Shown in pieces: positions 8,393-19,931 of a DNA stretch of 64,000 bases. The position numbers were made by a program, and so were the translations under genes. The first letter of the stretch is position 1, and each line of letters starts with the position of its first letter. Below the pieces are notes generated by a model. It saw only the letters and a program-made list of their open reading frames with translations, was not told where the DNA came from and searched no databases. Origin of the DNA: Streptomyces sp. NBC_01264 (GTDB lineage Bacteria; Actinomycetota; Actinomycetes; Streptomycetales; Streptomycetaceae); contig NZ_JAPEOX010000001.1 in NCBI RefSeq assembly GCF_026340675.1, positions 4,774,001 to 4,838,000 of the forward strand. Reading direction: 5' to 3'.

Positions 8393-8753
8393 TGGCACTC
8401 CCGATGAGGTGGTTGGTGCGAAGGCGGTTCCCTCAGCGTACCTGGAGGAAATTTCTACGCGGGTAGATATCTCTCTTGTATGATCCTCCACGCCGTTTCG
8501 GCTTCACCAACGCTTCGCAAAATCCACCGGAAAACCACGTACCCGGGATTGCGGCGAGACACGCGGAGATAATTAACTGGGCTTCGCAATGCAATGAGAA
8601 TCGGGGTACAAAGGAATCCTCCGGCGCGCCGGTATTTTCCGGTGCACGGCGATGCCAGAAAGATGCATTCCTCCGATACATCCACACAGGCGACATCACC
8701 GCTCCGTCCGCGCACATCAGCGGGAGCGGCGTCGCGCGAAGGGACCGATATCC
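8393..8753. other. AT-rich divergent intergenic region between purS and lsr2
   Basis: 361 bp without a gene. The section about 8430-8700 is visibly far richer in A/T than its surroundings (for example AAATTTCTACG, AGATAATTAAC, GGTATTTTCC). It must contain the purS and lsr2 promoters, but I cannot assign hexamers with confidence. A palindromic AGATATCT lies near 8466. AT-rich DNA is the preferred target of Lsr2, so autoregulation is plausible. Confidence 0.6.
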
Positions 8754-9071
8754 GTGGCGCAGCGCGTAGTAGTCACGATCTCCGACGACATCGATGGCGG
8801 AGATGCATCGGAAACGGTCGTCTTCGGGCTGGACGGTAAGTCGTACGAGATCGACCTCAATGTGGCCAACGCAAAGAAACTGCGGAAGAGCCTCGCCCCC
8901 TTCGTGGCCGCCGGCCGCCGGCAGGCCCGCTCCGGCAAGACCTTCAAGCACACCTCCATCGCCCCCGACCCCGCGGTCGTCCGGGCCTGGGCCCGCTCCA
9001 ACCAGCTCGACGTCCCCCCGCGCGGGCGGATCCCCAAGAAGGTCTACGAGGAGTACAACGCGGCTCACTGA
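8754..9071 (+). CDS. lsr2: Nucleoid-associated protein Lsr2
   Basis: 105 aa. The N-terminal dimerisation domain reads AQRVVVTISDDIDGGDASETV, and the C-terminal DNA-binding domain contains VRAWARSNQLDVPPRGRIPK, where RGR (residues 90-92) is the AT-hook-like minor-groove motif. Lsr2 is the actinobacterial H-NS-like silencer of AT-rich and horizontally acquired genes. GTG 8754 has AAGGGA 8 nt upstream. The long AT-rich leader suggests self-binding. Confidence 0.96.
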   Translation: MAQRVVVTISDDIDGGDASETVVFGLDGKSYEIDLNVANAKKLRKSLAPFVAAGRRQARSGKTFKHTSIAPDPAVVRAWARSNQLDVPPRGRIPKKVYEEYNAAH

Positions 9072-9157
9072 GAGCCGATTTGCCATCCACCCCTACCGGT
9101 CCGCTAAGGTGTGGATCACGCCAAGGGGCGAGGCCGCAGGTCAGACCCCGAAGTCGT

Positions 9158-9229
9158 GCGGGTGTAGTTCAGTAGCAGAACATCCTCCTTCCAGGGGGAA
9201 GGCGCAGTGTGCGATCCCTGTCACCCGCT
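9158..9229 (+). tRNA. tRNA-Gly(UCC), aberrant D- and T-loops
   Basis: Acceptor GCGGGTG pairs with CACCCGC; D stem GTTC/GAAC; anticodon arm TCCTC-CTTCCAG-GGGGA gives anticodon TCC (Gly, GGA). Two hallmark tertiary elements are missing. The D-loop AGTAGCA has A where G18 should be, and the T-arm has GTGCGA in place of GTTCGA (G55 for T55). Its T-stem pairs poorly (only about four pairs, GCAG with CTGT). The neighbouring tRNA-Gly(GCC) is fully canonical. See findings for a possible non-translational role. Confidence 0.85.
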
Positions 9230-9308
9230 CTGCTCGCTTTACCGACCACGGTTGTGGATCAGGTAGAGTGATGCACGCATCGCACGGCATTTTTGTCGTG
9301 GGAAGCAT

Positions 9309-9381
<73 letters not shown>

Positions 9382-9390
9382 CAGCGTATG

Positions 9391-11385: not shown

Positions 11386-11458
<73 letters not shown>

Positions 11459-11468
11459 CAGTAGTGAA

Positions 11469-19777: not shown

Positions 19778-19837
19778 GTTTCCCGCGGTCCTCTGGCTAA
19801 GCGGCCCGGCCGGCCCGACCCGTCCCGGAACGCAAAG

Positions 19838-19931
19838 CGCCCCCCACGCACCCGCCAGAGCCCACTTACCCTTGCTGCCTTCCGGCCCTGGGGGAGTTGG
19901 GTGAGATAGCGCCACGTGAGGGGCTGGGCCC
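19838..19931 (-). ncRNA. ffs: Signal recognition particle 4.5S-type RNA
   Basis: On the minus strand the core reads CCCCCAGGGCCGGAAGGCAG followed by CAAGGGTAAGTGGG. This is the universal SRP helix 8: GCC-GGAA-GGC tetraloop with the AGG/AGCA internal loop. Outer segments CCCCTCACG and CGTGGGG pair to close the rod. The ends are estimated from pairing. It lies upstream of dnaX in the same direction, a usual Streptomyces arrangement. Confidence 0.88.

Follow-up and report, generated by a model that had tools for sequence, protein, structure and literature searches.

The window, i.e. the whole stretch of 64,000 nucleotides analysed here (G000:C1:4774001-4838000 of a 10.67-Mb Streptomyces genome; genus label g1), harbors five tRNA genes, among them a divergent tRNA-Gly(UCC) and, downstream of it, two tRNA-Gly(GCC) genes (Table 1). 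An open reading frame that we take, from its sequence, to be Lsr2-like lies upstream. A bacterial small SRP RNA is also present (window 19830-19928 on the minus strand, 62.3 bits with Rfam).

Table 1. Features at the tRNA-Gly(UCC) locus, in window positions.
Feature	Position	Strand	Basis
Lsr2-like ORF upstream, start codon uncertain	8652..9071	+	ORF list
Promoter-like TTGCCA-N19-TAAGGT upstream of the divergent tRNA	9080..9110	+	constant-spacing motif, regular expression
Divergent tRNA-Gly(UCC)	9158..9229	+	Rfam RF00005, 45.2 bits, full length
Position 18 = A, where G is near-universal	9174..9174	+	direct reading
Anticodon TCC, with T33 just before	9190..9192	+	direct reading
Additional bulged U of the T-stem, giving a T-arm of 18 nt	9208..9208	+	Rfam alignment; isolated T-arm fold
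Position 55 = G, where T (pseudouridine) is canonical	9211..9211	+	direct reading
TAGAGT, resembling a -10 element, of the tRNA-Gly(GCC) gene downstream	9264..9269	+	direct reading
Canonical tRNA-Gly(GCC), next gene downstream of the divergent gene	9309..9382	+	ARAGORN, Rfam
Canonical tRNA-Gly(GCC), second copy	11386..11459	+	ARAGORN, Rfam

The UCC gene has the lowest Rfam score of the five tRNAs, and ARAGORN, run on the window, made no tRNA-Gly(UCC) call at 9158-9229. Direct reading yields the acceptor stem GCGGGTG/CACCCGC with the discriminator U73, the D-loop AGTAGCA with A18 and a retained G19, the anticodon loop CTTCCAG with U33 and the UCC anticodon, and the variable region AGGC, while CCA is not encoded. 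The T-arm, GCAGTGTGCGATCCCTGT, comprises 18 bases as compared to 17 in the canonical UCC gene of the same genome. According to the Rfam alignment, its stem is composed of five pairs, G49-U65, C50-G64, A51-U63, G52-C62 and, beyond an inserted U, G53-C61, followed by the T-loop TGCGATC with G55 and a retained C56. Direct reading and Rfam hence bear out the initial claim of a sequence-only reading of this DNA that G18 and T55 are both replaced. The poorly paired T-stem that it had described is likewise recovered as the bulged U, and the isolated T-arm is predicted to fold at -1.8 kcal/mol versus -6.6 kcal/mol for the canonical UCC gene; ARAGORN and Rfam also agree with it that the neighboring tRNA-Gly(GCC) genes are canonical. 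Folding of the entire molecules was dropped as a means to discriminate the two UCC genes, since the minimum-energy structure of the divergent gene (-29.3 kcal/mol) misses the T-arm and that of the canonical gene (-29.0 kcal/mol) misses the cloverleaf altogether. U33, A37, T54, A58, G19-C56 and G49-U65 are all intact. Recognition as a glycine tRNA relies on G1-C72, C2-G71, C35, C36 and U73, all of which are retained, and the acceptor and anticodon columns are invariant among the 20 variants aligned.

A scan of the whole genome returned 76 Rfam tRNA matches. Its glycine set consists of the divergent UCC gene, one canonical UCC, one CCC and three GCC genes. The canonical tRNA-Gly(UCC), whose existence the sequence-only reading had left to a genome-wide scan, is located at G000:C1:3592869 (Rfam genome scan; ARAGORN call), and the divergent gene is therefore probably not needed for decoding. 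Both UCC genes share the acceptor stem GCGGGTG/CACCCGC, U73, C35 and C36. In contrast to the divergent gene, the canonical Streptomyces UCC and CCC genes that were read combine G18 and G19 with a TTCRA T-loop and a 17-nt T-arm with a stable stem, and those of this genome are called by ARAGORN. The divergent gene is 74-78% identical to the other tRNA-Gly genes matched in a search of relatives, and the T-loop motif GTTCRA is present in each of the other 75 tRNA genes found in the genome (76 rows, as one Phe gene was read twice). In a crude test, the sole other tRNA gene without GG in the D-loop stretch was a tRNA-Leu(UAA) at G000:C1:4102141-4102222 (L094), presumably of the bldA type. Glycine tRNAs of Streptomyces have surfaced in other contexts: the accessible portion of PMC4398421 describes DasR binding sites both at glyS and at a tRNA-Gly that lies upstream of SCO3679, and that of PMC8388888 an antisense RNA to tRNA-Gly(CCC), neither of which has been established to be the divergent gene.

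The surroundings of the gene follow a regular plan within the genus. At 58 of 61 loci, a regular expression for TTGC...TANNNT at one constant spacing finds a promoter-like motif before the divergent tRNA, and the three loci without a match are promoter-distal tandem copies whose first copies are preceded by it. Tandem arrays contain two to four copies; among the 11 arrays examined, 10 have the motif ahead of the first copy and none has it between copies, with a looser -10-like string between the copies of array L158. No promoter motif was found at the standard spacing in L253 (g43). The longer arrays are L341 with four copies and L362, L116, L122, L123 and L125 with three each, spaced by 113-119 bases from start to start. 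In L384 (Streptomyces sp. AV19), copies at 2661-2732 and 2830-2875 flank a run of N; one is cut and one starts with N, which leaves the copy number uncertain. A tRNA-Gly(GCC) starts downstream at 61/61 loci, and the spacer before it holds TAGAGT, TAGGCT, TACAGT or TAGGGT at 59/61. In four loci from g35 and g31, the adjoining tRNA-Gly(GCC) has a D-loop that is one base shorter, AGTGGTA versus AGTTGGTA (L165 1629-1700, L262 380-451, L300 436-507 and L302 166-237). Among the matches listed, the bases directly upstream of the divergent tRNA differ in many other genomes of the genus.

This divergence of the flanks is quantified by the mean pairwise identity over the 61 loci (ungapped), which amounts to 93% for the gene versus 43% for the 60 bases upstream and 40% for the 40 bases downstream. 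The search of relatives recovered the gene from all 60 other genus genomes; in these and the genome at hand, 71 copies were read (one copy at 55 loci, two at two, three at four), and all variants from these genus genomes share a GTAG D-loop motif and a GTGC[AG]AT T-loop motif. When the 21-pair structure is laid over the 20 distinct variants, 99.5% of the 420 stem cells pair. In 20 of these cells both sides have changed, a number reached in none of 500 shuffles. Named loci retrieved with a Kitasatospora PurQ query point in the same direction: at least 70 contain the divergent gene (70/80 among the matches listed), with A18, G19, G55 and C56 in 75/75 of the 72-nt copies among these matches, and the 10 listed loci without it comprise seven of the Kitasatospora clade, two distant MAGs and one short contig. 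Phage records contained no match to the divergent tRNA, and a plasmid collection gave a single 78% match, located in an 11.85-Mb Nonomuraea record. The gene is thus a real, conserved and structurally altered tRNA.

Its range was delimited with a covariance model of the divergent gene that was run over 150 genomes of the family from 17 genera, using stricter filters than the genus search. The scores are bimodal, with at least 86 bits in 107 genomes and at most 73 in the rest. Altogether, 107 copies were read from 104 of the high-scoring genomes, and the other three (G000, G013, G056) were read separately. Positions 18 and 55 covary strictly: 99 family copies and one 71-nt copy with the same loops have A18/G55, seven copies from g30 and g33 have G18/U55, and none of the copies read is in a mixed state. 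G19 and C56 are invariant in the 106 full-length family copies, G19 being present in all 99 of the 72-nt A18 copies. Since A51-U63 and the longer T-arm already occur in the G18/U55 orthologs that were read as well as in the A18/G55 ones, both predate the switch and do not mark it alone. By genome, 100 of the 150 have A18/G55, seven have G18/U55 and 43 lack the gene. The changes in the D- and T-loop that the sequence-only reading had proposed to follow across relatives are thus conserved in the 60/60 other genus genomes and in two thirds (100/150) of the family.

The 43 genomes without the gene include all 38 of g42 (Kitasatospora) and all three of g39, in addition to one of two of g44 (G125) and one of g35 (G235, 71% complete); the latter two absences may reflect an assembly gap or a separate loss. 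A further search with looser filters in six gene-lacking genomes, including two of Kitasatospora that were read, did not detect the divergent gene. The Kitasatospora locus L249 retains the gene order purQ-purS-lsr2-like, after which come two canonical GCC genes. The idea that this pair had replaced the divergent gene was set aside, as loci of g31 and g35 have the same two-GCC arrangement next to a divergent gene, and simple loss is likely the better reading. Two of the three g39 genomes possess an extra tRNA-Gly(UCC) (L239 in G109 and L240 in G122, 1501-1573) with canonical D- and T-loops, A51-U63 in the T-stem and, as read here, C33 in place of the near-universal U33; it is possibly an independent translation-impaired tRNA-Gly. 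Outside the family, an order-level search of 15 genomes gave no score above 73.5 bits (stricter filters, by score); this search also added seven genus genomes, two of which were read. A class-level search of 268 genomes outside the genus did not find the divergent tRNA, with no score above 74.2 bits (stricter filters, mostly by score), and L179 and L180, among the best-scoring matches of the class, proved canonical on reading.

The direction of change was approached with gene trees. In a FemX tree, g30 and g33 (100/98) stand beside all other sampled genera of the family, which form one group (96/94), so that g30 and g33 come out as the earliest branch of the family, and Kitasatospora joins g39 (90/87); the tree, whose 26 rows comprise 22 family members and four long outgroup rows, is rooted at the midpoint and represents one gene that is itself the suspected partner. 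PurQ also joined g39 and Kitasatospora (96/93) and was dropped as a guide to polarity, because it left g30 and g33 unplaced. According to the available part of PMC6113628, S. scabrisporus is placed before Kitasatospora and Streptacidiphilus, and Embleya and Yinghuangia are new genera of the family; we infer that these early genera correspond to g33 and g30. The A18/G55 form looks like a change that arose within Streptomycetaceae, and both sides of the 18-55 contact apparently changed together, once. The simplest history would start from a family ancestor that already had a second UCC gene with the longer T-arm, followed by one concerted 18-55 change and one loss before Kitasatospora and g39.

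A plausible candidate for a consumer of the charged tRNA is FemX. In the genome at hand, femX (C1:4951360-4952475) lies about 168 kb from the divergent tRNA and is not physically linked to it; a second gene of the FemAB family is found at C2:1735799. Of the 150 genomes of the family, 149 encode FemX, and the 38 of Kitasatospora, which lack the divergent tRNA, are all among them. The exception, G120, contains the tRNA and has no FemX match, in a fragmented assembly of 410 contigs. Across the class, relatives of FemX (E <= 1e-20) occur in 132/296 genomes and, outside the genus, in 104/268, with the divergent tRNA found in none of these. A strict co-occurrence of tRNA and FemX is thereby rejected. 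For K. viridifaciens, whose own genome is outside the set identified here, the accessible text of PMC8092295 reports DAP-linked Gly in muropeptides of the mycelium and in the cytoplasmic precursor. Hence, the meso-DAP that the excerpt of PMC6113628 describes for mycelium was dropped as a reason for the loss in Kitasatospora. As the Kitasatospora genomes keep FemX without the tRNA, K. viridifaciens has DAP-linked Gly, and FemX relatives in the class occur where no such tRNA was found, the tRNA is not required for glycine addition as such. FemX remains the leading candidate consumer, yet one that does not depend on the divergent tRNA across the family. Of the earlier suggestion of a wall donor, the part that the gene may feed the wall still stands in view of the staphylococcal resemblance and the near-universal FemX, whereas a donor needed for the Gly branch fails for the family, given that 38/38 Kitasatospora genomes without the tRNA keep FemX.

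Taken together, the reading that we favor, with a rough probability of 0.4, is that of a divergent tRNA that is poorly used in translation and buffers Gly-tRNA for non-ribosomal use, most likely by FemX. The tRNA-Gly(UCC) paralog would be transcribed from its own promoter, as the promoter-like motif observed upstream suggests, and then presumably be charged by the ordinary glycyl-tRNA synthetase. Its remodelled elbow, in which the 18-55 contact is replaced and the T-stem is weak and bulged, could render it a poor substrate of EF-Tu and the ribosome, probably through weak EF-Tu binding. The Gly-tRNA may thus be left available for non-ribosomal transfer, in the first place to FemX, which would attach the glycine to DAP in the precursors of peptidoglycan. 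The tRNA is envisaged as a supply buffer rather than a strict requirement because FemX persists in the Kitasatospora/g39 clade, where the tRNA was apparently lost. A wall donor is plausible in view of the resemblance to staphylococcal wall tRNA-Gly, the presence of FemX in 149/150 genomes and the retained elements for glycine charging. That a glycine tRNA left translation by a single concerted swap from G18/U55 to A18/G55 atop an older T-stem bulge, convergent with the staphylococcal wall tRNA-Gly, is put forward tentatively, with the balance somewhat against it.

The proposed role is weakened by G19, C56, T54, A58 and U33, which are intact, and by the strong EF-Tu pair G49-U65, which this gene keeps, as well as by the unlinked femX. 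The same bases, along with A37, are compatible with a working elongator in which paired mutations merely exchanged the 18-55 contact for A18-G55, so that the gene supplies a minor or condition-specific isoacceptor for GGA/GGG and has no special role in the wall. The concerted change of 18 and 55 is what a contact preserved in another form would predict, and the divergent gene adjoins ordinary tRNA-Gly(GCC) genes. Such an elongator nevertheless appears unlikely, although well worth considering: the genome already has a canonical UCC gene, Kitasatospora and g39 manage without the divergent one, the isolated T-arm is predicted to be far weaker than the canonical one and its T-loop with G55 has no parallel among the other 75 tRNA genes found in the genome. 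Decay into a pseudogene, or a sequencing artefact, could account for the missing ARAGORN call and the low Rfam score, and is extremely improbable for a gene that occurs in 60/60 other genus genomes and, among the matches listed, in 70/80 named loci with A18/G55 in 75/75 72-nt copies, and whose T-loop core is nearly fixed. Further arguments against decay are the compensatory changes in the stems, the promoter-like motif at its constant spacing and the existence of tandem copies.

Conceivably, the charged tRNA serves another non-ribosomal or regulatory purpose, for example, by supplying a different Gly-tRNA transferase, by being delivered by a specialised second EF-Tu or by acting as a stress or uncharged-tRNA signal. 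The genome does encode a second, divergent EF-Tu (G000:C1:2036006-2037184, 557 bits versus 728 for the main EF-Tu). Its orthologs are found in 69 of the 100 A18/G55 genomes, in none of the seven G18/U55 genomes and in five of the 43 gene-lacking ones, a count from which one match of 62% identity (G165) was excluded as not orthologous. This distribution, patchy in the family, loosely tracks the A18/G55 tRNA and is suggestive. However, the association is confounded by phylogeny, as nearly all variation in the tRNA lies between genera, and 31/100 A18/G55 genomes have no second EF-Tu at the cut-off used. Streptomyces FemABX-type enzymes also use Gly-tRNA for antibiotics, as stated in the part of PMC12945691 that is available. 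Antibiotic Gly-transferases are generally too sporadic to explain conservation throughout a family, and another non-ribosomal or regulatory purpose, taken as a whole, is rather unlikely.

A literature search, restricted to open-licence papers and hence weak evidence, found no description of the divergent Streptomyces tRNA. The accessible part of PMC4052509 regards it as somewhat unclear, for most instances, how aminoacyl-tRNAs are diverted away from the ribosome into the synthesis of the wall. With a pre-switch, a post-switch and a lost state of the same tRNA, the Streptomycetaceae offer a testable case; if the tRNA did leave translation by the 18-55 swap, the pre-switch form of g30 and g33 and the natural loss in Kitasatospora and g39 would constitute ready-made controls. 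If, instead, the tRNA is still active in translation, a near-universal tertiary contact would be replaceable as a pair, which matters for the folding rules of tRNAs and for gene-finding programs that overlook tRNAs of this sort.

Among known systems, the Streptomyces gene resembles tRNA-Other of B. cereus, a non-standard tRNA-like gene tied to the envelope; the excerpt of PMC3399842 describes a pseudo-tRNA that affects the cell wall and antibiotic resistance, has no role in translation and may belong to a larger regulatory RNA beside a genomic island. The Streptomyces gene is, in contrast, a tRNA-Gly of compact size that is conserved through the family and preceded by a promoter-like motif of its own. 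A closer counterpart is the wall tRNA-Gly of staphylococci, which has the UCC anticodon and GUGC in place of GT-psi-C. These pentaglycine bridge donors of S. aureus and S. epidermidis are also extra to canonical isoacceptors in a FemX-carrying organism, and they have in common with the Streptomyces gene an altered position 18, G55 and A51-U63; GTGC is present in the window gene and in the A18 copies read. The staphylococcal-like loss of the D-loop GG, which had been claimed from the outset, holds for G18 and not for G19: the staphylococcal tRNAs replace both positions, with UU or CU at 18-19 according to the available text of PMC4052509, whereas the Streptomyces gene replaces position 18 only. 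The same source portion names A49-U65 and A51-U63 as T-stem pairs that weaken EF-Tu binding, and lost EF-Tu pairs are likewise mentioned in the part of PMC9976931 at hand. The Streptomyces gene differs in keeping the strong EF-Tu pair G49-U65, with A49-U65 in 13 of 14 g31 copies and in the g38 copy of the divergent tRNA, and in its extra bulged T-stem U. The products diverge as well, as staphylococci build a pentaglycine bridge and Streptomyces a single-Gly branch on DAP that a sister genus makes without the tRNA. If the escape from EF-Tu is true, this comparison would suggest that the same solution was reached twice via the same tRNA contact.
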